Source: Verrucomicrobium spinosum DSM 4136 = JCM 18804
GTDB taxonomy: Bacteria; Verrucomicrobiota; Verrucomicrobiia; Verrucomicrobiales; Verrucomicrobiaceae
Length of the DNA stretch: 64,000 nucleotides
Direction of reading: 5' to 3'
NCBI RefSeq assembly: GCF_000172155.1
Contig: NZ_ABIZ01000001.1
Location: forward strand, 3,257,105 to 3,321,104
In this document: positions 935 through 61,170 of the stretch, in pieces
Numbering within the stretch: the first letter of the stretch is position 1
How the letters are laid out: the number at the start of each line of letters is the position of its first letter
The notes under the pieces: generated by a model
Told to the model about the DNA's origin: nothing
Database searches by the model: none
The model's input: the letters and a program-made list of their open reading frames with translations, nothing else
Program-made: the position numbers and the translations under genes

Positions 935-3112
935 ATGTCACGCCCTTCCGATGATGCTACTCATTCCTCCAGTTCTGCCCCGTCCGCTCATTTGCAGTCC
1001 GTCCACGTCCGTCTGAGGGCGTTGGTGAGCCGGTTCCGGCTGCCTTTGTGGAACGCGCTGTTCCTCTTCGTGGGATTTCAGATGGTGCGTGTGTTGCTTG
1101 TGGCGAGGTTTCACCCAGTGGAGCCGCAGCCTCTGGGCTCCTACGCGCGCCTCTTTTTGGTGGGCTTGCACAGGGATCTGGTGGTGTCTCTGCTGCTGAG
1201 CACGCCGCTTGGCTTGTGGTGTGCCATGACTTCGAGCCGCGGTGCAAAACCTCCCGGCAGGGGGGGGAGGGCGCTGCTCACAAGTTTCTTGGCGTTTTCC
1301 TGGCTGCTCCAGGTGTTCCTGATGGTGGCGGAGTTGAATTTCTTTGCCGAGTTCAATTCTCGGTTCAATACGGTGGCGATCGATTACCTGATCTATCCAC
1401 ATGAGGTCTTTGCCAATATGTACCAGTCGTTTCCGCTGGGTTGGATTCTCGGGGGTGTGACGGCGGGTGGCTCGGTGATCACGTGGCTGCTGCTGAAGCT
1501 GGCAGGCCCGGCCCGCCAGGTGCCCAGGAGTTCTTCCATCTCTGCCCCGCGGCGCGCTGGTTCTGCGTTAAGCTGGGTGTTGCCCGTGGTCCTGCTTACG
1601 GCGACTCTGCCTCTCGTCCCATGGCAGCAGAGTCATGACCGGGTGATGAACGAGCTGGGGAACAATGGGCTGGTCGCAGGGGTGACCGCAGCGGTGACGC
1701 GAAATCTGGACTATACTGCCTTCTATCCGCACATGGACCGTGAGGCGGCCTACCGTAGGGTGAAGGCGCTGTTGGCCACACCGGATGCGACTTATGTGGA
1801 CCCGCACGACGTGTACAATCTCCGCCGCCGGATCCATGGCCGGCCGGGCACCCGGCCTTTCAACGTGTGTCTGCTCATGGAGGAGAGCCTGGGCAGCGAG
1901 TTCTGGGGCAGTCTGGGCCGAACCAAGAAAGACGGCACTCCTCACACCCTCACCCCGCACCTGGACCGGTTGGCGAACGAGGAAGGCTGGCTGTTTGACA
2001 ACCTCTGGGCCGACGGCAATAGGACCATTCGCGGGTTCGAGGGTATTTTGGCAAGCTTTCCACCGCTGCCAGGTGACAGTATTGTGGCGCGTGACCGGAC
2101 GGAAAACGTCGAGACCCTGGGACGGGTGATGACCCGTCAAGGGTATGAGACGCTCTTCATGTATGCCGGCCGCAGCCTGTTCGATGGCATGGGCCCCTTT
2201 GCCATCAAGAATGGGTGGAAGCGCTTTTTGCATCAAGGCAATTTCGAAAAGCCTGTCTTCACGAATGCGTGGGGCGTCAGCAATGAGGATCTCTATGCCC
2301 GGGCCATCCTGGAAATGAGGTCAATGCATCAGACGGGGAAACCATTCCTCCTGACGATGCTGTCTGTCTCAAACCACGTGCCTTTTACCTATCCTGCAAG
2401 GGGCCCGTCGCCTTTGGATGCGCTGCACCTCGAAAATGGGAAAGCCGCTCCAGACTATCCTCAAGGAAGGATTTCTCAGAACCCCGATGAACATCGGAGA
2501 GATTTCGCGGTGCGTTATGTGGACTGGTGTCTTGGACGCTTCTTCCAGGAGGTTAAAAAGGAACCTTTCTGGCAGGATACCCTTTTTGTCGTGGTGGCAG
2601 ACCATGGGGCGCGGGTTTACGGGAGCCAGGCGGTCCCGATCAAGAGCTATGAGATCCCCATGCTCGTTTTAGGCCCGGCTGTGGTGAAGCAGCCGCAACG
2701 CCAGTCGATGCTGGCCTGCCAGTTGGACGTGGCACCAACCATTCTCGGCCTCATCGGGCAGCCTTACGAATCTCTTTTCTTCGGCAGGGATCTTCTGCAT
2801 ACCCCAGAGACGCCCTTTGCCAAGGTGCTGATGCACCACAATCGGGAAGTCGCTTCTTATCGAGATGAACGGATGGTCGTGTTTGGATTGAACCAGAGCA
2901 TGGAGTTCTTTGGTGGGAATCCCAAAAGTGGAAAGATGGCTCCGCTGCCCGGCGTGGACCCCCGTGGCGCTCCGATAGCTGATGACGCCACCGCCCTGTT
3001 TCAGGTGGCCGATGATCTCTACATGAACAGGCGCTACCGGATCGATGGAGTGGAATCGTCTGCGGGTGGGGCGGAGCAACCCCGCGTGGCCAAGGCGAGC
3101 CCAGTTCGATGA
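935..3112 (+). CDS. LTA synthase / phosphoglycerol transferase family protein
   Basis: The protein has 725 residues. The first ~240 are strongly hydrophobic with about five transmembrane segments; the rest is a periplasmic alkaline-phosphatase-superfamily (sulfatase) domain. Seen motifs are LLMEESLGSEFWG (metal-binding Glu region), NRTIRGFEGI (expected catalytic Thr) and VVVADHGAR (metal-binding Asp-His). These match the LTA synthase family, which moves phosphoglycerol or similar groups onto envelope polymers or glycans. In a Gram-negative host, modification of a periplasmic or surface glycan (OpgB-like) is more likely than lipoteichoic acid synthesis. It starts at ATG 935 and stands alone between a terminator and a convergent gene. 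Confidence 0.85.
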   Translation: MSRPSDDATHSSSSAPSAHLQSVHVRLRALVSRFRLPLWNALFLFVGFQMVRVLLVARFHPVEPQPLGSYARLFLVGLHRDLVVSLLLSTPLGLWCAMTSSRGAKPPGRGGRALLTSFLAFSWLLQVFLMVAELNFFAEFNSRFNTVAIDYLIYPHEVFANMYQSFPLGWILGGVTAGGSVITWLLLKLAGPARQVPRSSSISAPRRAGSALSWVLPVVLLTATLPLVPWQQSHDRVMNELGNNGLVAGVTAAVTRNLDYTAFYPHMDREAAYRRVKALLATPDATYVDPHDVYNLRRRIHGRPGTRPFNVCLLMEESLGSEFWGSLGRTKKDGTPHTLTPHLDRLANEEGWLFDNLWADGNRTIRGFEGILASFPPLPGDSIVARDRTENVETLGRVMTRQGYETLFMYAGRSLFDGMGPFAIKNGWKRFLHQGNFEKPVFTNAWGVSNEDLYARAILEMRSMHQTGKPFLLTMLSVSNHVPFTYPARGPSPLDALHLENGKAAPDYPQGRISQNPDEHRRDFAVRYVDWCLGRFFQEVKKEPFWQDTLFVVVADHGARVYGSQAVPIKSYEIPMLVLGPAVVKQPQRQSMLACQLDVAPTILGLIGQPYESLFFGRDLLHTPETPFAKVLMHHNREVASYRDERMVVFGLNQSMEFFGGNPKSGKMAPLPGVDPRGAPIADDATALFQVADDLYMNRRYRIDGVESSAGGAEQPRVAKASPVR

Positions 3113-57523: not shown

Positions 57524-59029
57524 ATGCGAAAGTACCTCTCCTCCGGGCTGCCCATGCTGGCCGCCCTCCTCATGGCCCACCTTCCATCGGTGGCACGGGC
57601 TGTTGGCTCGAACCCTGCCTACACGGTCACGCCCTATGTGCTGCCCGATGGCGTAAAGCTGGAGGCCAGCGGCCTGGCTCTGCTGCCCGATGGGCGGCTG
57701 GCGGTCTCCGTCCGCAAGGGGGAAATCTGGATACTGGAACATCCTGAGGCTGACCCCACGGATGCCAAGGCCGTGGGCTACCGTCTCTTTGCCTCCGGAT
57801 TGCATGAGCCCCTGGGGCTGCTCTGGCATGATGGCGCTCTGTACACCGTGCAGCGCTCGGAGCTGACGAAGATCCGCGACACTGACGGGGATGGGGTTGC
57901 CGATGAGTATCTGGCCGTGGCGAAGGGCTGGGGAGTGAGCGGAAACTACCACGAGTACGCCTACGGACCGGTTCTGGACCGGGACGGGAACTTCTGGATC
58001 ACTCTGAACGCCTCCATGGGTGGGCCGGTGAAGCTCGCCGGTCACCGCATGCAGGAAAAACACTGGCGTGGCTGGGCGGTGAGCGTTTCACCTGATGGCA
58101 AACTGTCCCCAATGAGTGCGGGTCTCCGCTCGCCCTGCGGGATTGCCGTGAACGAGGAGGGGGACGTTTTCTGCACGGACCAGCAGGGCAACTGGTGGAG
58201 CACCAACCCGCTGCTCCATCTGCGCAAGGGCGCGTTCTTTGGTCACGCGGAGTCTCTGCCGGATGCCCAGCTTCCGGAGTCGCCGGTGGCAGATCCCGGG
58301 AAGCTGCCCCAGGGCATCACCGTGGTGGAGGCCTCCCGCCAGGTAAAGGGGTTTGCGCTGCCGGCCGTATGGTTCCCGTATGTGAAGGCGGGGCAGAGCC
58401 CCACAGGGTTGGTCTGCGACCTCACGGGCGGAAAGTTTGGTCCGTTTGAGAAGCAGATGTTCGTGGGGGAGTTTGTTCTTTCTGGCGTGAACCGCGTCTT
58501 CCTGGAAAAAGTCGGCGGTGAGTATCAGGGAGCAGTGTTCCGGTTCCAAGACGGCTTGCAGAGCGCCGCCCTCAGTCTGGCTTTTCTGAAAGATGGCTCG
58601 CTGCTGGTGGGCGAGTCCAACCGGGGCTGGAACTCGCAGGGCACACGTTCGTTCGGTCTGGAACGCATCCAGTGGACTGGTCAGACACCCTTTGAGGTCC
58701 AGAAGATGGAAGCTCAACCTGATGGTTTCCGGGTGACCTTTACCGATGAGGTCGATACAGGGACCGCCAGCAACCTGGGCAGCTACCAGATGAGCAGCTA
58801 CACCTACCTCTACCACCAGAAGTACGGTGGAGACGAGGTCGAGACCCAAAAAGTGACCATTTCCCAGGTCGTCTTGGAGCCCGGTGGGAGAAGTGTTCTT
58901 CTGAGGTGTGAGGGTCTCCGGGAGGGCTATGTGCACGAGTTGATCATGCCCGGAGTGCGCTCAAAGAAGGGGGTGCAACTCACTCATGCTGAGGGCTATT
59001 ATACGCTGAACCGACTTCCAGGGAAATGA
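57524..59029 (+). CDS. Exported six-bladed beta-propeller protein (dehydrogenase-like)
   Basis: The 501-residue protein has a signal peptide (GLPMLAALLMAHLPSVARA) and repeated propeller strands: LEASGLALLPDGRLAVSVRK, GLLWHDGALYTVQRSELTKI, DTDGDGVADEYLA, AYGPVLDRDGNFWITLNAS, GIAVNEEGDVFCTDQQGNWW. It resembles the PVC membrane-bound dehydrogenase/PQQ-sugar-dehydrogenase-like domain. The C-terminal ~110 residues look like a separate beta domain (DEVDTGTASNLGSYQM). Next to the cytochrome gene by 8 nt, so electron transfer between the two is plausible. Confidence 0.78.
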   Translation: MRKYLSSGLPMLAALLMAHLPSVARAVGSNPAYTVTPYVLPDGVKLEASGLALLPDGRLAVSVRKGEIWILEHPEADPTDAKAVGYRLFASGLHEPLGLLWHDGALYTVQRSELTKIRDTDGDGVADEYLAVAKGWGVSGNYHEYAYGPVLDRDGNFWITLNASMGGPVKLAGHRMQEKHWRGWAVSVSPDGKLSPMSAGLRSPCGIAVNEEGDVFCTDQQGNWWSTNPLLHLRKGAFFGHAESLPDAQLPESPVADPGKLPQGITVVEASRQVKGFALPAVWFPYVKAGQSPTGLVCDLTGGKFGPFEKQMFVGEFVLSGVNRVFLEKVGGEYQGAVFRFQDGLQSAALSLAFLKDGSLLVGESNRGWNSQGTRSFGLERIQWTGQTPFEVQKMEAQPDGFRVTFTDEVDTGTASNLGSYQMSSYTYLYHQKYGGDEVETQKVTISQVVLEPGGRSVLLRCEGLREGYVHELIMPGVRSKKGVQLTHAEGYYTLNRLPGK

Positions 59030-59075: not shown

Positions 59076-59105
59076 TTGAACGCACGGGTTGGGAGCAACT
59101 CTAAT
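59076..59105 (+). promoter_or_regulatory. Promoter-like boxes of RNA candidate copy 1
   Basis: TTGAAC (59076-59081) lies exactly 28 nt before the conserved RNA start CTGTAGTG, with a CTAA core in the -10 position (59101-59104). Copy 2 has the same box at the same distance while the spacer between them has diverged. Confidence 0.55.
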
Positions 59106-59109
59106 CTAT

Positions 59110-59254
59110 CTGTAGTGCTGAGTGAGTGATTACCAGCGCTGCTGTCTTGAGAGTGATTGGTTGTTGTCAATCAAACCCGCGCAAGCGGGATATGTGTTGA
59201 GGTTGATGCCAAAAGGGCTGGGCGAATGGGAGTTCGCCCAGCCCAACTCTTTTT
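59110..59254 (+). ncRNA. Candidate structured small RNA, copy 1
   Basis: A ~145-nt unit, over 90 percent identical to copy 2. Predicted stems are: P1 GUAGUGCUG (59112-59120) with CAGCGCUGC (59134-59142); P2 GAUUG (59155-59159) with CAAUC (59168-59172); P3 CCCGC-GCAA-GCGGG (59176-59189), a GNRA-capped hairpin; and a 3' intrinsic terminator (59215-59254) with a 12-bp stem. No protein frame is conserved between copies. I do not recognise a known RNA family. Confidence 0.72.
59215..59254 (+). terminator. Intrinsic terminator of RNA candidate copy 1
   Basis: GGGCTGGGCGAA pairs perfectly with TTCGCCCAGCCC around a TGGGAG loop, followed by AACTCTTTTT. Confidence 0.9.
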
Positions 59255-59577
59255 AGGGTGGATGCCAACAGGGAAAAAGTGGCGCAGGCGGATTGCCTCC
59301 CTTTTACCAAAAAATCTGACGGGCTGGCGTGGCGCCAGTTCTTGGCAACGACAGGGCGCGGTCAGGAATGCAAGACGTCGAGGGGGCATCTCGTGTAATC
59401 CAAGTCGTCAGGCATGATTCAGGATCTTCGGCCCACCTGAAGGGCAATCCTTCGGCACAGGCATGACGGATGCACCATCGCGCGGCTCCGTGGGCAATGC
59501 TTTTTTAAGGAGGAGCGCCCAGCCAAGGCAAGCCGTCGAGAATGGCACCAGGATCCGTCCTGACAATTTGGGATTCT
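59255..59577. other. Spacer between the two RNA candidates
   Basis: About 320 bp with no credible gene and no clear repeat. A short frame (59157-59417) that overlaps copy 1 has no protein character. Confidence 0.4.
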
Positions 59578-59606
59578 TTGAACACTCTCTCCCTCGCTGA
59601 TACTAA
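59578..59606 (+). promoter_or_regulatory. Promoter of RNA candidate copy 2
   Basis: TTGAAC (59578-59583), a 17-nt spacer and TACTAA (59601-59606), ending 5 nt before the conserved RNA start at 59612. Confidence 0.65.
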
Positions 59607-59611
59607 CTCCT

Positions 59612-59757
59612 CTGTAGTGCTGAGTGAGTGATTGCCAGCGCTACTGTCTTGAGAGTGATTGGTTGTTGTCAATTAAGTAAGCCCGCGGAAGCGGGATATG
59701 TGTTGAGGTTGATGCCAATAGGGCTGGGCGAATGGGAGTTCGCCCAGCCCAATTTTT
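59612..59757 (+). ncRNA. Candidate structured small RNA, copy 2
   Basis: The second copy keeps every stem of copy 1. P1 pairs 59614-59622 with 59636-59644; a G-to-A change turns a U-G pair into U-A. P2 pairs GAUUG with CAAUU, where a C-to-U change gives G-U. P3 is CCCGC-GGAA-GCGGG (59682-59695), so the tetraloop changes but stays GNRA. The terminator stem is identical (59721-59750) with an AATTTTT tail. These structure-preserving changes support a functional RNA. Confidence 0.72.
59721..59757 (+). terminator. Intrinsic terminator of RNA candidate copy 2
   Basis: Same 12-bp stem as in copy 1, followed by AATTTTT. Confidence 0.9.
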
Positions 59758-59821
59758 ATTTGTGACGATTTGGTCGCTTTGGCTTTACAATGTAATAGCA
59801 TCGATGATACAGGTCGCATCG

Positions 59822-60013: not shown

Positions 60014-60122
60014 CCGATAAAGTTATCGGATAACCGAGGGGCTTGTTTGAAACGAATTGTGCCTGAAGAGCCCAGAATTTGGTGCCGCTCGGCTTCACCA
60101 TCAAACCATTCAAACAAGCCCT
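60014..60122. other. Inverted repeats between convergent genes
   Basis: CCGATAA-AG-TTATCGG (60014-60029) is a 7-bp hairpin right after the lipoprotein stop. A perfect 13-bp inverted repeat GGGCTTGTTTGAA (60040-60052) / TTCAAACAAGCCC (60109-60121) reaches the ispE stop. Together they could end transcription from both sides, though without a long T run. Confidence 0.45.
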
Positions 60123-60975
60123 ACAGGGAGCCAGCCCGCACCACCTTCACCCAGGTGGTTTCACCACAGTATGCAGTCGCCTTGGCAGCCAGGGCTGCTG
60201 CATCCCTCTCAGACTCCGCAACTGCAAAGACGGTTGAACCAGAGCCTGACATCAGGGCGGCGCGGGTTTCTGCTTGATCCAGAAGCCACATTTTTAGGGT
60301 GGGGAGGAGGGACCACTTCTCAAAGACCGGGCGCTCCAGGTCATTCACCATGGGTCCCCAAGGGCAGAGCTGCGGGGCGTAGAGCACCCCTTGAAGCGGG
60401 TGGGACGTGCTCCACTGCTTGTACGCCCAGGGAGTCGGGATGCCAAAGGGCGGTTTGACCAAGACCACAGGGAGCTGCCAGGGGAAGTCCACAGGAGTCA
60501 AGATTTCACCCCGGCCGGTGGCATCACACACGGCGTCGTACAGGAAAAACGGTACATCGGACCCCAGTTGGGAGCCGAGTGTGACCAGAGTTTCCTGGGT
60601 AAGAGGGCTTCCAGACAGCAGGTTGAGCCCTCGCAGGGTCATGGCAGCGTTGCTGCTGCCGCCGCCCAGGCCCGCCCCGTGGGGAATGCGCTTTTCCAGA
60701 TGCAAGCTCCAGGACTGGACCGTCCCCGTCGCTTTTTCGAAGGCGCGCACGGCCTTCATCACGAGATTCGTCTCATCTGTGGGTAGGGACGAGTCGGTGC
60801 AGGTCAGGTCGCTTTTCCCAGCAGTTGCTCCCTCAGAGAAGGACAGGGTGTCACTCAGGTCCAGCGGGCAGAGGCGGGTGTCGAGAGCATGAAAACCGTC
60901 CTCCCGCTTGCCTAGCACACGCAGGTGCAGGTTGATCTTGGCGGGGGAGGTGAGCTGGAGAACGGGTGACGACAT
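60121..60975 (-). CDS. ispE: 4-diphosphocytidyl-2-C-methyl-D-erythritol kinase
   Basis: A 284-residue GHMP kinase with SPAKINLHLRVLGKREDGFH at the N-terminus, IPHGAGLGGGSSNAA (ATP loop), GSDVPFFLY and LMSGSGSTVFAV near the C-terminus, the full IspE signature. It phosphorylates CDP-ME in the MEP isoprenoid pathway. ATG 60975 (MSSPVLQLTSPAKIN) is chosen; the frame is open further to 61074 but that extension is unlike IspE. Convergent with the small lipoprotein gene. Confidence 0.93.
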   Translation of the reverse strand: MSSPVLQLTSPAKINLHLRVLGKREDGFHALDTRLCPLDLSDTLSFSEGATAGKSDLTCTDSSLPTDETNLVMKAVRAFEKATGTVQSWSLHLEKRIPHGAGLGGGSSNAAMTLRGLNLLSGSPLTQETLVTLGSQLGSDVPFFLYDAVCDATGRGEILTPVDFPWQLPVVLVKPPFGIPTPWAYKQWSTSHPLQGVLYAPQLCPWGPMVNDLERPVFEKWSLLPTLKMWLLDQAETRAALMSGSGSTVFAVAESERDAAALAAKATAYCGETTWVKVVRAGSL

Positions 60976-61170
60976 TACCTTCGTGAATACGCGGTTCAGG
61001 CCTCTGGTCAACGAGGATGCTTCCCGATGCGAATGTTCAAAAAAGCCAGACGAATTGTCCAAAAAACTTGTCAAATTCCCGCTAATTCAAGTAGCCTTGG
61101 CAAAAATTCACCAGGACCTTTGAGGAGGGTTCATGGGGCGGACATCTGGCACGTTTTTGTCATTCACGTC

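Follow-up and report, generated by a model that had tools for sequence, protein, structure and literature searches.

Control by sigmaE has been reported for the small RNAs MicA and RybB, and the same article gives GGAACTTTT and GTCAAA as sigmaE motifs (PMC1804206). VrrA of Vibrio, an RNA of 140 nt, is described as sigmaE-dependent and as having no stringent requirement for Hfq (PMC2628432). Further afield, the RNAs FoxI and FoxJ of Fusobacterium are presented in PMC11005410 as sigmaE-dependent, as sharing a similar seed and as lowering the levels of envelope proteins; according to that account they act in a distant phylum without Hfq and ProQ.

The window analysed here, a stretch of 64,000 nt from the 8,220,857-base single-contig genome of Verrucomicrobium spinosum, contains two units that an earlier note, made from the letters alone, had read as a tandem pair of conserved structured small RNAs with a layout belonging to no family known to its author. 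The observation is confirmed and the interpretation is supported by the analysis described below. Like MicA and RybB, each unit is, as judged by its sequence, a free-standing gene, and it ends in an intrinsic terminator. Two points go beyond the earlier note: by sequence, the TTGAAC that precedes each unit fits a -35 element of the ECF/sigmaE type, and the RNA appears to have distant relatives that occur in multiple copies.

Organisation and predicted fold of the two units

The two units, each about 145 nt in length, lie on the plus strand at the places where they had been reported (Table 1), and they are 91% identical to one another. Their first bases, 59111 and 59613, are 502 nt apart, in good agreement with the 500 nt originally given, and in both cases TTGAAC begins 35 nt upstream of the unit's first base, so that the claim of equal distance holds exactly. 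Near-identity extends over the RNA from its start through the terminator stem; the flanks have diverged, and so have the promoter spacers, as the earlier note describes. In each unit two hairpins capped by GNRA loops, P1 and P2, are followed respectively by core 1, a linker of 24 nt, and by core 2, a linker of 16 nt, after which comes the terminator hairpin P3; copy 2 carries a 4-nt insertion ahead of P2. For the earlier claim that no frame is conserved, the evidence considered is this insertion together with the differing lengths of the homologues.

Table 1. Positions in the window of the two RNA units, their parts and the neighbouring genes
Feature	Position	Strand	Remarks
DUF7133-domain protein, upstream neighbour	57524..59029	+	
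Copy 1 -35 element TTGAAC	59076..59081	+	
Copy 1 -10 element CTCTAAT	59099..59105	+	17 nt after TTGAAC
Copy 1 small RNA	59111..59254	+	transcript ends predicted
Copy 1 hairpin P1, GUGA (GNRA) loop	59112..59142	+	
Copy 1 conserved core 1, UCUUGAGAGUGAUUGGUUGUUGUC	59145..59168	+	candidate seed in 5' part
Copy 1 hairpin P2, apical part, GCAA loop	59176..59189	+	
Copy 1 conserved core 2, GUGUUGAGGUUGAUGC	59194..59209	+	able to close P2 base
Copy 1 intrinsic terminator	59215..59254	+	P3 (59215-59244) and C/T tail
Copy 2 -35 element TTGAAC	59578..59583	+	
Copy 2 -10 element TACTAAC	59601..59607	+	17 nt after TTGAAC
Copy 2 small RNA	59613..59759	+	transcript ends predicted
Copy 2 hairpin P1	59614..59644	+	
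Copy 2 conserved core 1	59647..59670	+	
Copy 2 hairpin P2, apical part, GGAA loop	59682..59695	+	
Copy 2 conserved core 2	59700..59715	+	
Copy 2 intrinsic terminator	59721..59759	+	P3 (59721-59750) and T/A-rich tail
GHMP kinase, downstream neighbour	60121..61074	-	opposite strand

The minimum free energy calculated for copy 1 is -69.9 kcal/mol, as against a mean of -42.0 kcal/mol for shuffled sequences (z = -7.9), and that for copy 2 is -66.0 kcal/mol as against -40.8 kcal/mol (z = -6.9); none of 200 shuffles was as good in either case. The length reported for the terminator stem needs correcting from 12 to 13 bp, the latter figure including a closing U-G pair, and the tail of the copy 2 terminator is rich in T and A with no clean run of T. 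As for the differences between the copies that had been held to preserve the structure, the exchange of U-G for U-A in P1 is real, as is the change from GCAA to GGAA in a GNRA loop, which sits in P2; the exchange of G-C for G-U in P2 is likewise real provided that the basal part of this hairpin (UCAAUC with GGUUGA) is counted.

Core 2 of the own-family RNAs, by which we mean those in the taxonomic family to which the window belongs, contains the repeat GUUGA-G-GUUGA, and two pairing registers are possible with the same UCA-containing strand. In one own-family copy (L021:1501-1652, minus strand), both GUUGA repeats read GUCGA and the partner GUCA reads GUCG. The possibility of two registers, together with this joint change of repeat and partner, leads us to propose tentatively that the own-family RNA may alternate between two folds by way of the core 2 repeat.

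Conservation and covariation within the family

The own family is represented by 68 genomes. A DNA search identified the RNA in 59 of these, from 11 of 11 genera, and a covariance-model search identified it in 64. The matching genomes are for the most part single-copy (59 of the 64), and within this family the RNA does not behave like a mobile repeat. Three genomes carry two full copies, and these are three of the four genomes in the window's genus; no other own-family genome has two. The remaining two (G019 and G026) give a second, weak match that spans the terminator region only and was not counted as a copy.

Alignments produced with MAFFT misregister the stems, and RNAalifold returned only 10 pairs from one of them; covariance-model alignments were used instead. 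L001, L002 and L034 were omitted as duplicates from the first alignment made. Across 43 copies, 28 of 29 pairs have changed on both sides, as expected if the structure is conserved in homologues. In the same 43 copies 92.9% of cells pair, compared with 74.1% in shuffles, none of 500 of which reached so high a value, and structures shifted as a control pair in at most 47.9%; these controls fall far short of the observed value, though covariance-model alignments, being fitted to the model, lean toward the structure they are given. The linker between P1 and P2 is strongly conserved, UUGAGAGUGAUUGGUUGUUG being exact over 20 nt in 29 of 33 own-family rows. One own-family copy (L071:2787-2918, minus strand) is seemingly without P2. 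A search with the core pattern found 12 places outside the RNA loci, as against three in the control, and some of these resemble the antisense strands of coding repeats.

The homologues, in 64 of 68 genomes and with 28 of 29 pairs covarying, exclude chance, and we conclude that the units in the window are real, conserved structured RNA. Comparison of the window and 13 homologous loci with Rfam 15 gave no family at gathering level, and relaxed searches of two stretches returned sub-threshold matches only; this agrees with the absence of a recognised family in the earlier note. A literature search likewise turned up no description of this RNA in the titles or abstract openings that it found. 6S RNA (RF00013) was considered and set aside, the window RNA giving no match to it; a single weak candidate was found in the genome, at another place on the minus strand (L065, G000:C1:2355363-2355551), with a score of 26 bits where the cut-off is 46.4. 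Overall, the units represent a genuine structured RNA family that is new to Rfam 15.

Relatives in other families of the order

The own-family covariance model gave weak matches in five genomes from two other families, with E values of 1e-5 to 4e-4 per genome. These matches, and a further locus found by pattern (L082), retain GUGUUGAGGUUGAU of core 2, and their P1, P2 and P3 sequences differ. When 384 genomes of the class were searched with a second model, constructed from five of these distant loci, 20 matched; 18 of these belong to a single other family, referred to here as the second family. Copies in the second family number up to six per genome and some are clustered. No own-family genome was among the matches listed from this search of 384 genomes, nor did the second-family model find the third-family locus. 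Of five own-family loci presented to it, L007 alone was found (E = 8e-7). As recovery across the families is weak, the case for linking own and second family depends no less on layout, promoter and letters in common than on scores. Taken together, these results indicate that the RNA family probably extends to two further families of the order.

The second-family alignment comprises 47 of 56 matches. The nine that were excluded are L007, L068, both matches at L082, L140, L162 and the repeats L166, L167 and L173, these last being three repeats of one same place. When the set is widened to 53 distinct rows, a few doubtful matches among them, 38 of 40 pairs covary, those of the lower part of P2 included. 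The sequence of core 1 differs between the own and the second family; in the latter, the 14-nt AAGGGUGAACAGCA is exact in 34 of 45 copies and UUUCAUGUAAGGGUGAACAGCA in 25 of 45. The paralogues of the second family differ in P2. We had regarded core 2 as the deepest conserved part, since the first seven distant copies all retain it, but GUUGAGGUUGAU is present in 3 of 45 second-family copies and the idea was abandoned. Two doubtful matches in other families (f17 and f71) were judged to be false, the promoter GAAC-N17/18-GTC being absent from both. In the third family, too, the RNA occurs as a tandem pair (L069:1726-1866 and 1929-2069, minus strand), in which the core 1 region is predicted to form an additional hairpin.

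Promoter elements upstream of the RNA

The AAC of the -35 element, with one extra A allowed, is present in all 33 aligned own-family rows; the element reads TTCAAC in many of them and TCGAAC in some. CTAA is found near -10 in 28 of the 33 rows. The C of CNAA is 19 nt from AAC in 24 rows and 20 nt from it in six, the other three having matched a later site. Most rows also have an A-rich stretch upstream. On this pattern of conservation, TTGAAC is the -35 element of a promoter that has been kept with the RNA. The -10 element of the own family is without the G of GTC, the window copies having CTC (copy 1) and TAC (copy 2) at these positions.

In the second family, GAAC-N17/18 is followed by GTC in 44 and by CTC in one of the 45 copies examined, and the spacing from GA[AG]C to TC is 18 nt in 43 copies and 19 nt in two. 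In 39 loci totalling 189 kb there are 52 instances of the pattern T[TC]GAAC-N15..18-GTC and none when it is read backwards; 44 of the instances immediately precede RNA copies, one place being present in two loci, and eight lie elsewhere. Three second-family genomes contain 20 places with TTGAAC-N17-GTCTRW, and RNA copies follow at 15 of these; the control gave three. Two of the remaining five, L192 and L197, have flanks that are alike in two genomes and no recognised RNA copy; this may be another gene with the same promoter, perhaps part of the same regulon.

The same spacing is seen in E. coli: TGAAC-N17-GTCTGA is present at micA and GAAC-N17-GTC at rybB, and upstream of rpoH we find TTGAAC-N17-GTCTGAT, which we take to be the sigmaE promoter of that gene. 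Judged by layout, an ECF/sigmaE-type promoter is well supported in the second family and is probable at the window copies.

Neighbouring genes

The downstream neighbour of the pair in the window, a GHMP kinase gene that is presumably ispE, lies on the opposite strand, and this disfavours a role of the RNA as a leader. A relative of this kinase is present at 18 of the 37 own-family loci examined, six of the 43 loci having been without a core match, and the 12 members displayed are all downstream and on the opposite strand. Other own-family neighbours are globin with leucyl/phenylalanyl transferase, MgsA with PEP carboxylase, GAPDH and HlyD. The neighbours vary between genera and in the own family are mostly metabolic and mostly not envelope genes.

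In the second family, L066, L067, L070 and L082 have related co-directional genes downstream, which are SurA/PpiD-like in the two tested; at L068, the fifth of the first second-family loci, no such related downstream gene was recognised. A secretin gene is situated upstream at L145 and L148. Clusters of two to four RNA copies are found at L168-L172 among genes for large, probably secreted proteins. Domains recognised in the large proteins near clustered copies are Laminin_G, Ig, PKD or RCC1; genes for FAD/BBE enzymes are also nearby. Of these second-family neighbours, the SurA/PpiD-like isomerase, the secretin and the large proteins are related to the envelope. Other second-family copies lie close to unrelated genes, for example those for an rRNA dimethylase or a sulfatase. 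A position upstream of a co-directional gene is not general throughout the RNA family, the window copies facing a gene on the opposite strand.

Sigma factors, Hfq and candidate targets

The Pfam Hfq model gave no match in the own genome, while 5 of 14 control genomes were positive. Of 68 ECF sigma factor matches in the own genome, 42 are above the cut-off. The promoter motif upstream of 30 ECF loci is as rare as its reversed control (two occurrences each), and no autoregulated ECF gene was seen among these 30 of the 42 loci over the cut-off. The own-family promoter pattern was found at four places in the own genome, two of which are the RNAs themselves, and its reversed control at 11; since the pattern is rarer than the control, no regulon is visible in this genome.

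The likeliest seed is the 5' half of core 1, a segment left unpaired in the model structure. A search of four genomes for its complement, allowing up to three mismatches, returned 28 places, of which seven are the RNA itself; the 21 others compare with four in the reversed control and with about 23 from a uniform chance estimate. A candidate site, identical in three genomes of the genus (L243:1501-1518, at G000:C1:3710532, L241 and L250), precedes the start codon of a gene by 40-41 nt; the encoded protein begins with a signal-like N-terminus and contains a CxxCH motif of the cytochrome type. Ungapped comparison of the 39 nt ahead of the site gives identities of 44%, 44% and 77% between the three genomes. 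The predicted duplexes have energies of -22.8, -21.1 and -21.1 kcal/mol, values matched by 9, 17 and 29 of 1000 shuffled cores, respectively. This site in a cytochrome-type leader was chosen after the search and is put forward as a candidate only.

Discussion

We favour, with a probability of about 55%, the interpretation that these units belong to an Hfq-independent small RNA family of the ECF/sigmaE type that acts in trans on the mRNAs of envelope or secreted proteins. This interpretation builds on the homologous family, its covarying structure, the conserved promoter with a layout like that of E. coli sigmaE-type sites, and the lack of a detectable Hfq gene. From an ECF/sigmaE-type promoter, each unit would give rise to an RNA of about 145 nt made up of three hairpins and two conserved linkers and ending at the intrinsic terminator. 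We infer that envelope stress would cause an ECF sigma factor to switch the RNA on, that mRNAs encoding secreted or outer-membrane proteins would then pair, in their 5' leaders, with the core 1 linker, and that this pairing would lower their translation without the involvement of Hfq.

The principal alternatives leave the RNA as it is and change what drives it or what it binds. The same kind of RNA might be transcribed by the housekeeping sigma factor and act by base-pairing on metabolism or growth phase, a proposal that we regard as unlikely. By eye, TCTAAT and TACTAA of the window copies resemble boxes such as CATACT and CACACT that precede tRNA genes of the own genome (25 distinct upstream regions were read, from 30 loci out of 62 matches), the A-rich upstream stretch is like that of strong promoters, and metabolic genes predominate around the own-family copies. 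Given these tRNA boxes, the missing G of GTC and the incomplete conservation of CTAA in the own family, a housekeeping promoter retains some plausibility for the window copies. Yet it is AAC that is kept in the -35 element and not TTG, and a sigma factor that reads TAnnnT needs neither the GTC nor the CTC found at -10 in the second family. It is less likely still that the RNA is a binding platform or decoy for a protein in the manner of 6S or CsrB, the linkers being protein sites and not antisense seeds. Such a function might account for the recurrence of G-rich loops and for the near-invariance of core 1 across the own-family genera and of a different core 1 among the second-family paralogues. 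There is, however, no match to 6S or to any other Rfam family at gathering level, and the fact that core 1 differs between the families is better accommodated by changing targets than by one fixed protein.

That the RNA is a cis-acting leader, a riboswitch or attenuator of the next gene, is very improbable. The co-directional genes that follow L066, L067, L070, L082 and some of the clustered copies are what such a leader would precede, but the GHMP kinase relatives of the own family lie on the opposite strand where displayed, the neighbours change from genus to genus and the model structure ends in the terminator-like P3. A mobile or repetitive element with no function, which the pair in the window and the clustered, multiple copies of the second family might bring to mind, is a negligible prospect, the RNA being single-copy in most own-family genomes and kept there with its promoter and with compensatory changes.

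If the envelope-directed small RNA that we favour is correct, RNAs with sigmaE-type promoters would be a recurrent solution, found in a further phylum and in bacteria with no detectable Hfq. More tentatively, at slightly worse than even odds, the noncoding arm of an ECF/sigmaE-type envelope response in Verrucomicrobia would be an Hfq-independent RNA family with a fixed promoter, a near-invariant core, a P2 specific to each paralogue and up to six copies in a genome, some of them beside surface-protein, secretin and SurA-like genes; it is not known to be related to its counterparts in Proteobacteria or Fusobacteria. The promoter layout shared with E. coli envelope-stress small RNAs suggests that a distant phylum also manages its cell surface with small RNAs. 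The fixed promoter, the near-invariant core and the natural paralogues make the family a handle on sigma factor, targets and mechanism, and a well-supported family that Rfam 15 lacks is added to those described.

Among known systems, 6S RNA resembles the window RNA in being a structured bacterial small RNA, but the two do not match. By analogy, and with no claim of homology, the RNA most likely works like MicA, VrrA or FoxI. It shares with MicA and RybB the character of a free-standing small RNA, and the GAAC-N17-GTC of E. coli micA and rybB has its counterpart in the GAAC-N17/18-GTC of the second family and in the TTSAAC-N17 of the window's family, where the -10 element is of the CTAA type. 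The window RNA is longer, at about 145 nt as against the 73 nt annotated for micA and 79 nt for rybB, has three hairpins and no Rfam match and, unlike these Hfq-dependent RNAs, belongs to a genome with no detectable Hfq. FoxI and FoxJ are likened to it by description only; their seed is a stretch of cytosines, whereas the linker of the window RNA is rich in G and U. VrrA, also likened by description only, has a similar size and the sigmaE dependence that is proposed here.
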